A program made the translations under genes and the position numbers. Of a stretch of DNA of 64,000 bases, positions 35,329 through 46,122 are shown one piece after another. Source of the DNA: Methanolobus tindarius DSM 2278 (lineage in GTDB: Archaea > Halobacteriota > Methanosarcinia > Methanosarcinales > Methanosarcinaceae); contig NZ_AZAJ01000001.1 of NCBI RefSeq assembly GCF_000504205.1, positions 594,879 through 658,878 on the forward strand. The letters are read 5' to 3'. Every line of letters begins with the position of its first letter. The first letter of the stretch is position 1. The notes under the pieces are model-generated. The model saw only the letters and a list, made by a program, of their open reading frames with translations. It ran no database searches and had not been told where the DNA came from.

Positions 35329-36435
35329 TCAAAGTATCTTGGAGAGAATCAGGACAATTAGCATTGCTACAACGCCGACTGCCCAGAATTTGAGAGTTTC
35401 ATTCAATGGTATCCTTATATCCACAAGATCAGCTCCTAAAATCGCAACTGGTTTAGAACCTGTTATGGTGCTGGAAGATGAATCATATCCTGCTGCCTGT
35501 CTTTTTGGTGCTTCAGGGACAGGAGGGACTGAAGCATCCACAGGTGTGCTTGCTGGAGCACTTGCAGGTTCAGACCTTATTGTTTCAGGTTCGGTTCTTC
35601 CAATTACATTTTCTTCTGCGGTGTAAGATGAAACAGGTTCCTGCGATGCCGGTGTGGATGGAGATGAAAATGTATCTTCCCTTTCTTCCACAGGCTCGGG
35701 AGATGAGAATACAGATGGTTCATCTCTTTCGACAACTGAAGGGGAACCTGAGATCACATCATGTTCTTCTGGTTCTGATGTTGAAACTGAACCGCTTCCA
35801 AAAACGTTCTCTTCTGGTTCTTCGCGGGATTCATACCCGAAGTCCTGTGTGGTAAATGTTTCTGGTTCAGGTTCCGCATCGAGATCTTCGATGAGCTCTT
35901 CCTGTCCTTCAACATAATCTTCGTTTGCATATGAAGGGGAGCCGTTGTCAGGCTCATCACCTGAGATTACATTGCTAAATATTGATTCGTCACCAACAGG
36001 TGTCTGGTATGATGAAACACCCTCATCAGAAGGTTCTTCTGTTGTGACTGGCTCAGGTTCAGAAGGAATTTCTTCTTCCACTATTTGTTCTTCAATTACC
36101 GGTGCAGGAGTCTCAGGCTCTGAAACATTGTCCTCCACTAAAGGAGCTGAAGACGCACTGGCTGATGATCCGGCTGTAGCACCAATCAGACCCTGATAGT
36201 CCGGATCGACCTCTATAGCAAGATCAAAGCTTTTTTTGGCTTCCTCAAAACGTCCCATTTTTTCAAGAGCTTTTCCTTTCTTGAACCATGCTTCAGCACT
36301 GTAAGGATCGATATCCAGTGATTTAGTATAATATTCTACCTGTTTATCAACCGTTTTGGCTGAATCACCCATTTTTATCCAGTTCTCAGCAGCTTTCTGC
36401 TTTTTCTTTGATTTTACGTCATCTAACATTCCCAT
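35329..36435 (-). CDS. TPR protein with acidic linker and C-terminal membrane anchor
   Basis: A 368-aa protein. Residues ~15-85 hold two tetratricopeptide repeats (AEAWFKKGKALEKMGRFEEA is a canonical unit). Residues ~90-320 are low-complexity, rich in Glu, Pro and Ser (EEPEENVFGSGSVSTSEPEE type). The last ~22 residues are one transmembrane helix (FWAVGVVAMLIVLILSKIL). The whole should face the cytoplasm as a tail-anchored scaffold. Partner unknown. An in-frame ATG at 36429 (MLDDVKSKK) is an alternative start. Confidence 0.78.
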   Translation of the reverse strand: MGMLDDVKSKKKQKAAENWIKMGDSAKTVDKQVEYYTKSLDIDPYSAEAWFKKGKALEKMGRFEEAKKSFDLAIEVDPDYQGLIGATAGSSASASSAPLVEDNVSEPETPAPVIEEQIVEEEIPSEPEPVTTEEPSDEGVSSYQTPVGDESIFSNVISGDEPDNGSPSYANEDYVEGQEELIEDLDAEPEPETFTTQDFGYESREEPEENVFGSGSVSTSEPEEHDVISGSPSVVERDEPSVFSSPEPVEEREDTFSSPSTPASQEPVSSYTAEENVIGRTEPETIRSEPASAPASTPVDASVPPVPEAPKRQAAGYDSSSSTITGSKPVAILGADLVDIRIPLNETLKFWAVGVVAMLIVLILSKIL

Positions 36436-36631: not shown

Positions 36632-37165
36632 TCATTCCTTTACTTTTTCATATTCAAAAGCCCACATAGGAAGGCCTTCTATTTCCACATGATCCAGATG
36701 TTCCATCTCATGTGCAGCATAAAATGCGGAAGGGCCGGAGAATGATACTGTTTTTTCAGTAGATTCTTTTATGAATATTTTCTGTTTTGCTGTGCTGATT
36801 GAAGCTACTATTATCCTTTCAGCCCTGAGTGTAACTGAATAAGGCCTTGTGACAAGGGAACGCTCTTCCTTCCCACCACATTTTTCCAGTCTGTGAACAA
36901 TGCCTTCCTTTGATACCCATTCGGGATTCAGCAACAACCACACTTCTTCAATAGTATGGCCTGTTTTGCTTTCCTTATAGTAGTCAGTAAAGACCTTCAT
37001 CACAGAGATGCTTTTCAGGTCATTTGTGGAATAGCTCCATGCACCGCCAACTTTCAAAGAAAGGATCATTGGATAAAATGCATCCCTGGGAAGGTCGAAT
37101 TTTCCAAATATTGCTTCTTCCCTTGTACTGAATTTGAGGATGGCTTTCATGTCGTTGACCTTCAT
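36632..37165 (-). CDS. Peptide deformylase-like protein
   Basis: A 177-aa protein. The C-terminal half shows the order of elements found in peptide deformylases: LLLNPEWVSKEG (79-88), Cys96 in LEKCGG (cf. EGCLS), VTRPYSVTLRAE (105-116), and HEMEHLDHV with His152, Glu153 and His156 (cf. QHExDHL). The three expected metal ligands and the catalytic Glu are therefore present. The N-terminal GxGLAAxQ motif is not evident. Archaea start proteins with unformylated Met, so the role must be something else (inference). It is flanked by a TPR protein and a membrane protein, with no translation gene nearby. Confidence 0.55.
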   Translation of the reverse strand: MKVNDMKAILKFSTREEAIFGKFDLPRDAFYPMILSLKVGGAWSYSTNDLKSISVMKVFTDYYKESKTGHTIEEVWLLLNPEWVSKEGIVHRLEKCGGKEERSLVTRPYSVTLRAERIIVASISTAKQKIFIKESTEKTVSFSGPSAFYAAHEMEHLDHVEIEGLPMWAFEYEKVKE

Positions 37166-40188: not shown

Positions 40189-41994
40189 ATGGGGTCAATA
40201 ATATCTGAAATTCTCTCGGGGTACAAAAAAGCACTTGATATATCTCAAAATGAATATGAAAAGCTCTACACTGAAAGAGCAAAAAATGCAAAAGAATTTT
40301 ATGACACTTTTTTTTCAGAATTAATTAAAGATTGTTCTCACTTTGCAGACAGTTCTAAACAGAGGCAAATTAAACGTTTAGTTGAACACATTTTTAAGAG
40401 TGATGAAGTTAAATTCGCTGCAATAGATGGTACCTGTTATAAAGACCGTTTAGGAGACTATATGGTCTTTTTTGGAGGTTCTTATGGAATACGAGGAAGT
40501 ATTCATTTTGAAGGCGAACCTCCTAAAGTAAAGTATGAAAAATGGTCATCTGAACAAGATGTAAGCATGGTTGCCTATGTTCCTGTACCATTTGCAGAAT
40601 TAAATGATGTATCAGAAGAACAATTTGTGTTAAAACCAGATGAGGAAAAAGTGAATCTTTTGTCTATCCATACACAAATAATGCAACTCGCCGAAATATA
40701 CCTCATATATGATTTAATGAAAGCTTCTAGCTTACGCCCTAAATTTATTCTTTGGGATCAAACAATGAGTGGGATATTAGCTAGTAACGACATTGGAACC
40801 GATAACATCGAAATGATTGGATTGGTGCATAATGGTAGGAAGTTAAACATAGGGGATGTGTTAATAGCTTATTCACATCCTTACAACAGAGAATTAGGCG
40901 TTCCATCCACCAAAAAATTTAGACTTTATAATTATGTACTCAGCAGACTTTTCCAAGAATCTCCGCTTCAAATATCAAAATTGGTTAGTGAGATTGATAT
41001 TGATGAAAAAGAGTTTTTGCGTCGCATCAACAAATTATATCTCAAGAGTTTTCCCGATGATGAACCTATTATCAAAAAAGAAGGAGATTACCTTCATTTA
41101 AATGACTTATATCGTGATTCATGGCCATATACACTAAGTCTATTTGATAAATTTTGTGAAAAACTGTTCAAAAATAAAGATCAAAGAGTCCTTATGTATG
41201 AAACTAAAGAGCATGATGACATCAGAAAACGCTGGATGTCCCCTAATGATTTGCGTTTTCTTATATCTGTAGGAATGAGAGCAATCATAGAGGAAGCTTG
41301 GAAACATGATATTCTATTAATAGGAATCACAAAGGATTCATCTGCAAGATATCTTTCTAGAAACTATTTAGGGTGTATGCGGTATCTAAAACAATATGAG
41401 TTCGAAGACGTATTATTACCTTGGACTGACCGATCTTTTCTTGAAATTATACCTCTTGGAGATGATAATCTAAATGCTCCTTGGACAACAATAGAATATG
41501 ATTCTGCGTTTATGACCTTGCATTTAGAAGATATAAATGGACCAATTAGAGGTGTTCAAGGAAAGGTTGTAAACACCGAAAGAATCATTGTCAAATCACT
41601 GGCACAATTTTATTTGAAGAGAGATCGTCATCACCCTTTAATGGGGCATGTAATTTTCATTGATAGATTGCTCATGCCTAGTTTTGAAAGAGAAAGATTT
41701 GAAACCGTTCAAATAAACGAGCATTACTTGGGAAAAGTAAAACCAGTCACTTTTTGCAACAATGAAAACGAAAATCACGTTCAAGATGTTACTATTTATC
41801 TTTTGAACATCTTAACTAGAAATCTGTATCCAGAAGTAATTGGTTACCCTGACCCATTACATAAGGCAGATTGGGGAGCTAAAACACTCTATAAGAAAGT
41901 AAAATTCATGATTGATAGTAGTGGGGTTACTTTAAGAACAAGACCACTTAACAAGACTTTTAGACGTATTAGGGATGAAATAAGGAGAATTTAG
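40189..41994 (+). CDS. Enlarged NurA-like nuclease of a putative defence operon
   Basis: A 601-aa protein. Residues ~73-100 read KFAAIDGTCYKDRLGDYMVF, the motif I region of NurA nucleases, where Asp80 would bind Mn. Residues ~376-386 (LLIGITKDSS) match the second NurA motif with its Lys-Asp. Asp residues near VIFIDRLL (~490) could complete the site. Canonical NurA is about 300-450 aa, so this protein has a large insert. NurA proteins are 5'-3' exo/endonucleases that work inside a HerA hexamer. Its stop abuts the HerA ATG with no gap (41994/41995), so the two are coupled. I am fairly sure of the family, less sure of each catalytic residue. Confidence 0.72.
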   Translation: MGSIISEILSGYKKALDISQNEYEKLYTERAKNAKEFYDTFFSELIKDCSHFADSSKQRQIKRLVEHIFKSDEVKFAAIDGTCYKDRLGDYMVFFGGSYGIRGSIHFEGEPPKVKYEKWSSEQDVSMVAYVPVPFAELNDVSEEQFVLKPDEEKVNLLSIHTQIMQLAEIYLIYDLMKASSLRPKFILWDQTMSGILASNDIGTDNIEMIGLVHNGRKLNIGDVLIAYSHPYNRELGVPSTKKFRLYNYVLSRLFQESPLQISKLVSEIDIDEKEFLRRINKLYLKSFPDDEPIIKKEGDYLHLNDLYRDSWPYTLSLFDKFCEKLFKNKDQRVLMYETKEHDDIRKRWMSPNDLRFLISVGMRAIIEEAWKHDILLIGITKDSSARYLSRNYLGCMRYLKQYEFEDVLLPWTDRSFLEIIPLGDDNLNAPWTTIEYDSAFMTLHLEDINGPIRGVQGKVVNTERIIVKSLAQFYLKRDRHHPLMGHVIFIDRLLMPSFERERFETVQINEHYLGKVKPVTFCNNENENHVQDVTIYLLNILTRNLYPEVIGYPDPLHKADWGAKTLYKKVKFMIDSSGVTLRTRPLNKTFRRIRDEIRRI

Positions 41995-43806
41995 ATGCCT
42001 TTTAAAATGAAACCTGGAAGGCTTATGCTTATGGAGCCTGATCCAAGAACATCATATAAGTATACAATATGGTTTGACTATACTCGTAATCAAATGATTA
42101 ATATAAAAGAAGGTGATTTAGTCGCGGTTCCTAATTTTAATTCTACCGTAGATTTGACAACTTATAGCATACTTTCAATAACTAGTACTATGCCAATTCA
42201 TTACGCACTTGGTGGAGGTGGTAATGATATAAAAGGTTACCCTGGATATGTTATGGAAGCGGCCTCAAACCTTCCTGTAGATTGGATGGAACAAGAGAAC
42301 GATTCTTTTGAGGACACAACTAAAATAATTTGCACTGCTGTGCCCATTTTCATGGAATTTGTAGACAATATTGGTACAGCTATTAAACAAAAAAAGATTG
42401 TTCAAGAAACATCCGTACCCATGCTAGGTGGGGAAGTTAGACTATTATCACCTGAATTCACTGAAAGAATATTTAATAATGGGATTGATAATGAAAAAGA
42501 AAACACAATGGCTATTGGCAATCTTATTCGAGATGAAGATATACAAATATACACAAGAATTGATGATTTGATTAAAGTGCATTTTGGATTGTTTGGGTTC
42601 ACTGGTGTTGGAAAAAGCAATTTCTTAAGTAATTTCATTTCAAATATACTGGACAAATCCAATGAAACTTTAAAAATTCTTCTTTTCGATTTAATGGATG
42701 AGTATGCAGGTTTACTCATTGACAAATTACTAGATGATAGCATAAATTCCTGTATATTATGTGTTGGTGAGAAGTCTTTACCGGGACCTGTTTTGGAGTA
42801 CTTAAAATATCGTGAAGAAGATAAACTCGATTTTGCAGTCGATTCCTTACTTAAAAATTTATTAGTACCTAAAGGATTAAAACCACATAAAAATCAATAT
42901 CAAGATTCACTCAAAAAGTTACTAGTTCAAAATAAAATAAAGATCATTGAATCAAGTATGGAAAGGACGTATACTCAGTTTATGAGTGAAATTCATGATA
43001 AAATCTATGACCAATACACAAGCGACAAAATGGAATTTGCATTGAATAAAGCATTAAAACCTCCTTTGAAGAAATTTGGAGAAGAAAAGTTAAATGATGA
43101 AGTTGCAAGAAAAATAATTGTGTATCTGGAAGAAATCGCGAATTTAGATGAGAACAAATCCATAAAGGAAAGACTTGAAAGACTCATATACTTACTTGAA
43201 GAAATCGCTGAAAACAAAATAGAAGAAATAAATATAAACTCTAGAATTTCTCTTACTCAACTAGTTCATGATTTAAATAATGAAGATAAAAATAGCTTGT
43301 ATATAGCAATATCACATGACCCTCATGCTTTGAGAAATTTTGCTAAAAAAATAGGATATTACATATATGAAAATAGGCGTGCAAATGGTAAAATTACACC
43401 AATCAATTCATTCATATTTGATGAAGCCGATGAGTTTATACCTCAAAGTGCAACTGGAAGCTATGCTGAATCCAGTCAAATTATAGAAACATTAGCAAGA
43501 AGAGGAAGAAAATTTGGAATTGGTATTGGAATAGCAACCCAAAGAATAACCTATCTAAATACAAATATCATGGGTCAACCACATACATATTTTATTAGCA
43601 AGCTTCCAAGAGACTCCGATAGAGAAAAAGTCGCAGAAGCTTTTGCTATGTCAAAAGAAATGCTTTCTCAGACGTTTAAGTTTAATAAAGGAAATTGGTT
43701 ATTAGTTAGCCATGATGCTACCGGTCTTGATGCAGTACCAATACCAATCAAGACAGATAATGCAGAAGATAGGTTGAAGAAGTTCCTTGGTGTTGATGGT
43801 TATTGA
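41995..43806 (+). CDS. HerA-like hexameric ATPase
   Basis: A 603-aa protein. An N-terminal beta-barrel (HAS-like, residues 1-130) is followed by a FtsK/HerA ATPase core: Walker A GFTGVGKSN (201-209), LLFDLMDEYAG after it, an inserted helical segment (~270-420), Walker B FIFDEADEF (~473-481), then ETLARRGRKFGIGIGIATQR, an arginine-finger/sensor region. HerA pumps DNA through a ring and drives NurA. The gene is fused head to tail with the NurA-like gene and overlaps the next start. There is no Mre11-Rad50 here, so it is not the housekeeping end-resection operon. Confidence 0.88.
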   Translation: MPFKMKPGRLMLMEPDPRTSYKYTIWFDYTRNQMINIKEGDLVAVPNFNSTVDLTTYSILSITSTMPIHYALGGGGNDIKGYPGYVMEAASNLPVDWMEQENDSFEDTTKIICTAVPIFMEFVDNIGTAIKQKKIVQETSVPMLGGEVRLLSPEFTERIFNNGIDNEKENTMAIGNLIRDEDIQIYTRIDDLIKVHFGLFGFTGVGKSNFLSNFISNILDKSNETLKILLFDLMDEYAGLLIDKLLDDSINSCILCVGEKSLPGPVLEYLKYREEDKLDFAVDSLLKNLLVPKGLKPHKNQYQDSLKKLLVQNKIKIIESSMERTYTQFMSEIHDKIYDQYTSDKMEFALNKALKPPLKKFGEEKLNDEVARKIIVYLEEIANLDENKSIKERLERLIYLLEEIAENKIEEININSRISLTQLVHDLNNEDKNSLYIAISHDPHALRNFAKKIGYYIYENRRANGKITPINSFIFDEADEFIPQSATGSYAESSQIIETLARRGRKFGIGIGIATQRITYLNTNIMGQPHTYFISKLPRDSDREKVAEAFAMSKEMLSQTFKFNKGNWLLVSHDATGLDAVPIPIKTDNAEDRLKKFLGVDGY

Positions 43807-45125
43807 GTTGGGAAGATGATAAAATATTTGTTCCTTTTTTTGTTTCCGATAGGCAGGCCTCTCTAAGAATACTCAGAGGACTGGATATTCCTAAAGAAAA
43901 AAAAATAGGAATTATGACCCATGCAAACACCAGTAATAACTTCAAAGAAGTAATTGCAAATTTCCCTTGTTCTGAAAATGAGTATTGCGAGATAATTGGC
44001 AAAGATTGTCCCCATAATAAAGACTTGAACAAGTGCAGTAAAGGAAAAAAATATGCACAAAAAATCATCACAATTTCCGATTCCGGGGTTTTCACAAAAG
44101 AAGGATGTATGTTTGATGATTATGAGCAGCTTTTTGAGCAATATGAAAAAATGAAAGTTCATTATGGAATAATGATCGATCACCTCAAAGACAAGGAAGA
44201 GACCCTAAAAAGCGCTAAATTGGCAATTGAAACATACAACAAAGAAAAGAGAACTTTCAAAATAATAGGAGTGGCACAGGGTAATTCACTAGATGAATAT
44301 ATAGAATGCTATCAAAAATTAAAAGAGATGGGATTTGAGTATGTTGCTGTTGGTGGCTTATTAGAGAAAAGAGAAAATACCGTTAGATATGTCAGAATTC
44401 GGGATGAAAGTTTTCTATATAATGTTCTCAAAGCAATTCGTAAAATTGATCCAGATGGATGGATTTTTGCACTCGGTAGCTATGCACAAAGTAGGCATTA
44501 TAATTTTTTAGAGATTGGAGTTCAAGGAAGCGATTACAAAGGCTGGATATTCCAATATAAGAAAGAAAATAAAGATGCTGTCAAAGGAGACCTTGAAGCA
44601 CGTAAATCCAGATTTAGACAGGTCAGAACCTATATTTTGGATAATATATTGAATAAAAGGCAGTCCTTTGGAATATGGCCTAAATTAATGATATTGCCTT
44701 GCTCTAAAAGAAAAGCAGATTTTGAAGATGAAATTCCTGCTATTGAAAGATATGAAGGTCAATATTTCAGAATAATCAAAAATTATATTGATGATTTTTC
44801 AAACTGCGATGGTTTTGACATAGCAATCTTGTCAGCAAAATATGGTCTTATAGAACCTATGGAAAAAATAGAAAATTATGACCTCAAAATGAATGATTCA
44901 ATTGCCTTAGAATTAAACAAATCAGTCATTAAAAAACTTAAGGTAATGAACAAGAAAAAGCAATACAAAGAAGTTGCCATCAATCTTGGTGAAACTTATT
45001 TCAAAGCTATTAATGGCTACGAGAAGATATTTGGTGATAATACAGAACTCACTATTTTTGAGGGAAAAATTGGAAAAAGGCAACAACAAATGAAAAAGTG
45101 GCTTGACACAATTAAAATTAATTAA
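43803..45125 (+). CDS. DpdA-like transglycosylase fused to a DUF6884/YaaA-like domain
   Basis: A 440-aa protein starting at TTG 43803, which overlaps the HerA stop. Residues 1-~280 are tRNA-guanine-transglycosylase-like: SDSGVF (92-97; cf. DSGGFQ, Asp93 equivalent to the catalytic Asp), MIDHL (124-128), IIGVAQGNSLDEY (154-166) and VAVGGLL (181-187) in the VQG/GGL order, and Asp244 as a candidate nucleophile. Cys56, 62, 69 and 78 form a possible zinc knot; the C-terminal CxCxxC zinc site of tRNA enzymes is missing. Residues ~294-440 have LPCSKRK (298-304) and LSAKYGLIEP (343-352), typical of DUF6884/YaaA-like proteins. DpdA enzymes put preQ0 into DNA; I infer the same here. Confidence 0.72.
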   Translation: MSWEDDKIFVPFFVSDRQASLRILRGLDIPKEKKIGIMTHANTSNNFKEVIANFPCSENEYCEIIGKDCPHNKDLNKCSKGKKYAQKIITISDSGVFTKEGCMFDDYEQLFEQYEKMKVHYGIMIDHLKDKEETLKSAKLAIETYNKEKRTFKIIGVAQGNSLDEYIECYQKLKEMGFEYVAVGGLLEKRENTVRYVRIRDESFLYNVLKAIRKIDPDGWIFALGSYAQSRHYNFLEIGVQGSDYKGWIFQYKKENKDAVKGDLEARKSRFRQVRTYILDNILNKRQSFGIWPKLMILPCSKRKADFEDEIPAIERYEGQYFRIIKNYIDDFSNCDGFDIAILSAKYGLIEPMEKIENYDLKMNDSIALELNKSVIKKLKVMNKKKQYKEVAINLGETYFKAINGYEKIFGDNTELTIFEGKIGKRQQQMKKWLDTIKIN

Positions 45126-46122
45126 TTTCAGATGGTAGTTTAAAGATATAACAATTGTTTTCAATATTGGACTTTTTCTTTTTGACTTTGTCTAAGTCTT
45201 CAGTAATATTGACTCGCTTAATAGGAATACTATAGACAACTTGGGTTTTAGGATGGTCCCTACAAAATAAATATAAACCTAATGTTTGAATTTTTGTACC
45301 TAAAGGTGAAATACATACATCCACATTCTTATATTGAGAAACGATTTCAATCAATTGATGATAAAAATCCACAGGGCTAAAAGAAGAGATAGTATGAATC
45401 TTATTGTTGCTTGTTCTGACTACACTATTTTTATTAAGCAACCCCCAATTGCATTTATAAACATTATCATAAAATAATTCATCTTCTTTTTTGTCCCCCT
45501 TGCTAGGCACACTAATAATAGGGAGGATAATATCACTAGAGAAATTTGATAAAAAAGAGATTGTACGATGGCCTTCATAACCAAGTATTAAAACTAATAA
45601 TATTTCTGTAGTAAGGTCAGTTTCTCCTTCAAAACCGTCAACAACAACTATATCCTTTAATCCTATATCTAGTTCATCATCAGTTGGTATCCTCCAAGAA
45701 TCTATTAAATAAAAAAATAAATTATGAGCACCATCAAATTCTTTAGCCAACATTAATATCCAATTTTTAGGAAATGTTGTAATATTTACTATAGTTTTAC
45801 CATCAATCAAATCAAATTTCTGCTTTAGTGATTGATAATTAGTCAATTCTGTTTCAAATATATCATGTACTATATTATTTTCATTCAAGAAGGATTCCAA
45901 CTCTTTTTTTTGTGATAACCACTTTTCAGTTAGTTCGTCACTCAAATACTTTGTTCCAAAGTTTATTAATAAAACAGTAGATATGTTGAAATTGATTAGA
46001 ATTTGTTTCGTAGATTCCAATCCTCTTTCTTCATAACTTATTGCAGTAATTAGATAGTCAAAATGACAATTCAATCCTCTTCTTTTGTATTCATTTAACT
46101 TAATTGAAGTCCAAGAATTCAT
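45118..46122 (-). CDS. Protein of unknown family paired with the SIR2 gene
   Basis: 334 aa from the ATG at 46122, preceded by GAGGG and directly after the stop of the SIR2-like gene; a longer start at 46167 lies inside that gene. I recognise no named family. It has Rossmann-like alternation: FDYLITAISYEERGLES (21-37), STVLLINFGT (48-57), IVNITTFPKN (111-120) and VCISPLGTKIQTLGLYLF (269-286), suggesting a sensor or nucleotide-binding domain. It converges on the DpdA-like gene with an 8-bp overlap of 3' ends. A role as partner or regulator of the SIR2 effector is inferred from operon structure alone. Confidence 0.7.
   Translation of the reverse strand: MNSWTSIKLNEYKRRGLNCHFDYLITAISYEERGLESTKQILINFNISTVLLINFGTKYLSDELTEKWLSQKKELESFLNENNIVHDIFETELTNYQSLKQKFDLIDGKTIVNITTFPKNWILMLAKEFDGAHNLFFYLIDSWRIPTDDELDIGLKDIVVVDGFEGETDLTTEILLVLILGYEGHRTISFLSNFSSDIILPIISVPSKGDKKEDELFYDNVYKCNWGLLNKNSVVRTSNNKIHTISSFSPVDFYHQLIEIVSQYKNVDVCISPLGTKIQTLGLYLFCRDHPKTQVVYSIPIKRVNITEDLDKVKKKKSNIENNCYIFKLPSEIN

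Follow-up and report, generated by a model that had tools for sequence, protein, structure and literature searches.

A divergent peptide deformylase-like protein of methanogens, encoded in Methanolobus tindarius

The gene and its neighborhood

We analyzed a stretch of 64,000 nucleotides ("the window") from the genome of Methanolobus tindarius DSM 2278, which is a single contig of 3,151,883 bases. On the minus strand of the window, an open reading frame that runs from an ATG at 37165 to a stop codon at 36632 encodes a protein of 177 amino acids (Table 1). This is a real gene, because 23 of the 27 congeneric genomes contain a match, which is full length in 21, and because dN/dS between it and three congeneric relatives is 0.06-0.08. 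The gene is under purifying selection.

Table 1. The gene and its motifs in the window, with the basis for each
Feature	Position in window	Strand	Basis
ORF, PDF-fold metallohydrolase-like protein, 177 aa	36632..37165	-	Of 27 congeneric genomes, 21 have an intact homolog
GGAWSY, residues 40-45, where PDFs have motif I; GGxWSY invariant, without Gln	37031..37048	-	84-sequence family alignment
NPEW, residues 80-83, equivalent to the INPE strand of PDFs, with P81 invariant	36917..36928	-	Translation, hhalign, family alignment
LEKC, residues 93-96, motif II equivalent with predicted metal ligand Cys96	36878..36889	-	hhalign: aligned with EGC of PDFs
VTRPYSVTLRAE, residues 105-116, counterpart of VxRxxxVxxRA in PDFs, with R107 invariant	36818..36853	-	Translation, hhalign, family alignment
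HEMEH, residues 152-156, motif III equivalent: predicted ligands H152 and H156, predicted catalytic E153	36698..36712	-	Family alignment

In Methanolobus, the neighboring genes encode a TPR protein, an FAH-fold protein, and gltX (the FAH and gltX names are our reading of the sequences). Outside Methanolobus, the neighbors vary by group and include Thg1, UDG/NUDIX, FdhD, TrmO or HerA. A neighborhood search of 63 loci found no conserved partner beyond the genus, and in the neighborhoods examined, neither a ribosomal gene nor a formyltransferase gene adjoins this one. (The TPR protein, at 35332-36435 on the minus strand of the window, has a long stretch rich in proline, glutamate, and serine and a hydrophobic C-terminal segment. 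In each of the 15 Methanolobus loci that we examined, it adjoins the gene, in some with one open reading frame between the two.)

Elsewhere in the window, at 40189-45999, genes for a HerA-like helicase (PADLOC "HerA, Type III coevolved", 5e-92), a DpdA-like/DUF6884 protein, and a CARF6 protein adjoin each other, with an unnamed protein of 601 amino acids ahead of them. This region is a possible defense or CRISPR-ancillary island.

Conserved and altered deformylase motifs

A first-pass annotation, made from the letters of the window, had described the protein as similar to peptide deformylase (PDF), with NPEW, Cys96, VTRPYSVTLRAE, and HEMEH in the deformylase order and with all of the metal ligands and the catalytic glutamate present. 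The 177-residue translation confirms the order, and the second part of the description is borne out by an alignment of 84 homologs from the Methanosarcinales and other methanogen families of the same phylum. Cys96, His152, Glu153, and His156 are identical in all 84 sequences, as are Gly40, Gly41, Trp43, Ser44, Tyr45, Pro81, Glu94, Arg102, Arg107, and Glu155. Leu93 is also kept in 84 of 84 and Lys95 in 80. Every member thus has, in the right order, the metal-binding cysteine, the HExxH, and the catalytic glutamate that are expected of the PDF superfamily (PF01327). NPE and the metal cysteine are spaced 16 residues apart, as they are in the E. coli PDF.

The glutamine of motif I is important in canonical PDFs. 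Two papers give the three motifs of PDFs as G-Phi-G-Phi-A-A-X-Q, EGCXS, and QHEXDH (PMC12690207, PMC5591237). Motif I (GxGxAAxQ) is not conserved in our family, a point that the first-pass annotation had missed: none of the 84 members has a glutamine at residues 46-47. At motif II, all members have E[K/R]C[G/S]x, so the glutamate and the cysteine are kept and the glycine and the serine are gone. At motif III, xHExEH is found in 84 of 84; the two histidines and the glutamate are kept, and the glutamine and the aspartate are gone. Judging by these motifs, the protein is not a canonical PDF.

Evidence for deformylase ancestry

We then asked how the family relates to PDFs as a whole. Comparison against 70 PDFs with hhalign gave a probability of 94.5% and an E value of 8e-8 over 88 columns, with Cys96 placed on the metal cysteine of PDFs and HEMEH on HExDH. 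A PDF HMM that we built ourselves matched 51 of the 84 members. The Pep_deformylase model (PF01327) scores the M. tindarius protein at 16.3 bits, which is below its cutoff of 22.8, and a relative (from G153) passes that cutoff with 23.5 bits, over motifs II and III. NCBIfam models gave no match to the protein.

A structure predicted with AF2 from 13 close sequences has pLDDT 79.8 and pTM 0.77, with pLDDT below 50 for the last 16 residues. In this model, HEMEH lies on a helix (residues 145-157). The top Foldseek match is the E. coli PDF (E 2.7e-4, probability 1.00), and in VIA-align, all of the best 50 rows are PDFs (Z 7.8-9.0, 112-136 residues). A Z of about 8-9 is modest support on its own. 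The case for the fold holds because the list is uniformly PDFs and because it agrees with the independent sequence evidence. The predicted fold is that of the PF01327 superfamily. Overall, profile-profile comparison, the predicted structure, and the order and spacing of the motifs indicate that the family descends from the PDF superfamily.

Compared with bacterial PDFs (Def, PF01327; types 1 and 2), then, the protein shares the predicted fold and, in the same order, the NPE strand, the metal cysteine, the VxRxxxVxxRA strand, and the HExxH helix. It also shares the spacing from NPE to cysteine and the Cys/His/His ligands with their catalytic glutamate. It differs in lacking the motif I glutamine and in having LEKCG instead of EGCxS and HExEH instead of QHExDH. 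Because of an insertion, the cysteine and HExxH are 56 residues apart, versus 42 in the E. coli PDF. Furthermore, it lacks a methionyl-tRNA formyltransferase (Fmt) partner in its own genome, and its family forms a separate long-branch clade (see below).

Pfam gives the protein another name. The "Zn_protease" model, PF05618, scores it at 34.2 bits (the cutoff is 27), matches all 21 intact congeneric proteins, and reaches up to 48 bits in relatives, which would make it a retropepsin-like aspartic protease of the RimB or "ATP-dependent zinc protease" family. What the protein shares with RimB-like proteins is this score above the cutoff. But the DTG of the active site is missing, and VGGAWS stands in its place; a genuine member of PF05618, with VDTGA, is encoded elsewhere in the same genome. 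An HMM from 14 genuine RimB-like members had no matches among the 84 family sequences, and hhalign against the genuine RimB-like profile aligned 14 columns that were not colinear (E 0.045, probability 1.2%), which we take as a match by chance. The predicted fold is PDF-like, as the list of structural matches indicates. For these reasons we rejected the PF05618 name, and we find an aspartic protease barely credible here. We infer that the match is an artefact of the Pfam model, which seems to have absorbed members of this PDF-like family. PF05618 is a likely source of misannotation for the family.

Distribution and loss

The best 12 named relatives are all from Methanolobus, with 65-91% identity in the best segment. 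With a genus-level alignment as the query, we found matches in 73 of the 238 genomes from the class. With a broader alignment, matches came from 66 of the 393 genomes in the phylum, in 14 genera and several families. No homolog turned up among the plasmids, phages, and viral contigs that we searched. A scan of genome contigs with the single protein had no match; in a follow-up scan of genome contigs, the only matches were from Methanolobus and one Methanosarcinaceae MAG. Searches of PDB sequences, by single-sequence phmmer and by profile, found no relative.

When the family was placed in a tree together with 12 PDFs, a very long branch (support 100/100) set it apart from them, and the branching order within its clade follows taxonomy. 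Since this is a single clade that follows taxonomy, the tree indicates that the gene is old in these methanogens and has been inherited mostly vertically, with losses. Any acquisition would be ancient.

Within the genus, the gene is broken in two genomes and missing from four (one of these four genomes is 70% complete). (In one broken copy, from G012, the parts are about 40 kb apart and there is an internal stop; the other, from G014, has several stops.) With 6 of the 27 congeners thus doing without an intact copy, the gene is dispensable.

Formyl-methionine in this and other archaea

If the protein deformylates nascent chains, then there should be a source of formyl-methionine (fMet). To our knowledge, there is no source of nascent fMet other than Fmt. 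We detected no Fmt in the M. tindarius genome, whose one Formyl_trans_N protein is PurN (NCBIfam equivalog, 246 bits versus 150), so the check for Fmt that the first-pass annotation had called for gave a negative answer and the partner of a canonical PDF is missing.

That annotation had also stated that Archaea do not use formyl-methionine. At the level of genes, this is too strong. In another archaeal genus of the same phylum, all 8 genomes (1.6-2.0 Mb) encode two canonical PDFs, and in all 8, one of the two is directly followed by Fmt on the same strand, in a def-fmt operon. The Fmt proteins of the operons are full length and are 37-41% identical to E. coli Fmt, and one of them scores 289.6 bits against TIGR00460 (the cutoff is 201.5). 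In the literature that we searched, we found no published account of def-fmt operons in that genus.

Three G-C pairs in the anticodon stem are typical of initiator tRNAs, and bacterial initiators have a C1xA72 mismatch at their end. When we searched about 1.4 Mb of the 1.80-Mb genome of one member of the def-fmt genus (G455), we found a candidate initiator CAU tRNA with three G-C pairs in the anticodon stem and the archaeal A1-U72 end. (There are also orphan canonical-type PDFs in L140-L142 and in L143 (G335). These have QHEIDH or QHELDH and a motif II that is altered, for example to WDSC or WESC, and no Fmt adjoins them.)

Proposed function and alternatives

We propose that the protein belongs to the PDF superfamily as a divergent member and is probably a metallo-amidohydrolase that acts on a non-ribosomal formyl or acyl amide. 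Our analyses establish its ancestry, its predicted fold, the strict conservation of the catalytic set, the lack of a detectable Fmt or of a conserved partner, and its dispensability. Metal binding, hydrolysis, the type of substrate, and the role of GGxWSY are what we infer. Cys96, His152, and His156 would bind one metal ion (Fe or Zn), Glu153 would activate the metal-bound water, and a formamide or another short acyl-amide bond would be hydrolyzed. GGxWSY, together with Glu94-Lys95 and Arg102/Arg107, may replace the motif I glutamine and form a different substrate pocket.

The first-pass annotation had left a choice between a different substrate and a gene that was acquired and repurposed. A non-ribosomal substrate is the better reading, because the organism's own genome lacks Fmt and has only PurN. 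Repurposing by way of acquisition fits only in part, given a clade that follows taxonomy. So the substrate would be something other than the nascent fMet chains of the cell's own ribosomes. More likely, it is an N-formyl or N-acyl compound that is small or is scavenged; our guess would be, for example, fMet peptides from neighboring bacteria. A scavenged substrate would fit the repeated loss of the gene.

PDFs with altered motifs have been described before. According to two papers, type 3 PDFs, which occur in Archaea, protists, and some bacteria, carry replaced residues in motifs I and II and are weakly active or inactive (PMC5591237, PMC12690207). As far as these descriptions go, which name no methanogen, and our comparison is by description only, the family resembles the type 3 PDFs of Archaea and trypanosomatids in its occurrence in archaea, in its substitutions in motifs I and II, and in its uncertain activity. 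Finding a PDF-like protein in an archaeon is thus no novelty by itself. What seems new, judged against those descriptions, is a strictly conserved clade of methanogen proteins without the glutamine, whose member here has no NCBIfam name and sits in a genome that lacks Fmt.

Could the protein instead be a working nascent-chain deformylase of this kind, with the initiator methionine formylated by an enzyme that is not recognized? The metal site is intact in 84 of 84 members, and def-fmt operons occur in another genus of the phylum. Archaea and protists are reported to have type 3 PDFs in which motifs I and II are altered, and those of trypanosomes are active (PMC12690207, PMC5591237). But the organism's own genome has no Fmt, the motif I glutamine and the motif II glycine and serine are gone, and the gene has no ribosomal or formyltransferase neighbor. 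Its absence or breakage in 6 of 27 congeners would also be odd for a needed housekeeping step. We consider a nascent-chain role quite unlikely. The opposite idea is a non-catalytic metal-binding or regulatory protein on a PDF fold. The loss of the canonical motif I is consistent with this, and one paper describes some accessory PDFs that have altered motifs and no activity (PMC12690207). However, all 84 members keep Glu153, a residue that does not serve as a metal ligand, and they keep both arginines and GGxWSY as well, which makes a non-catalytic role unlikely.

We also considered a replacement for ArfB, the formamide hydrolase that other archaea use in making riboflavin and F420. Creatininase-type ArfB is missing from all 27 Methanolobus genomes, and only one genome in the phylum has both a creatininase and this PDF-like family. 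But GTP cyclohydrolase III (PF05165), which makes the formyl substrate, is missing from 80 of 80 relatives, so the expected co-occurrence is not seen. Both genes are missing from many genomes, among them those of congeners whose PDF-like gene is absent or broken, and the anticorrelation is confounded by taxonomy. Given the presence of creatininase and GTP cyclohydrolase III across genomes, we rejected this role, which is very doubtful. (With no GTP cyclohydrolase III in the 80 genomes and no creatininase-type ArfB in the 27 Methanolobus genomes, the first steps of riboflavin and F420 synthesis must use other enzymes.)

Implications

Returning to the amidohydrolase that we favor, the family might constitute an archaeal branch of its own within the deformylase superfamily, found in many methanogens without tRNA formylation, that acts on a formyl or acyl amide of a new, non-ribosomal substrate with a rebuilt oxyanion site in which GGxWSY stands in for the glutamine. 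We see this fuller picture as evenly balanced between right and wrong. The fold of a bacterial translation enzyme, with its catalytic site intact, has been kept where methanogens show no visible need for deformylation. The identity of the substrate would reveal an undescribed reaction in the one-carbon or peptide metabolism of methanogens.
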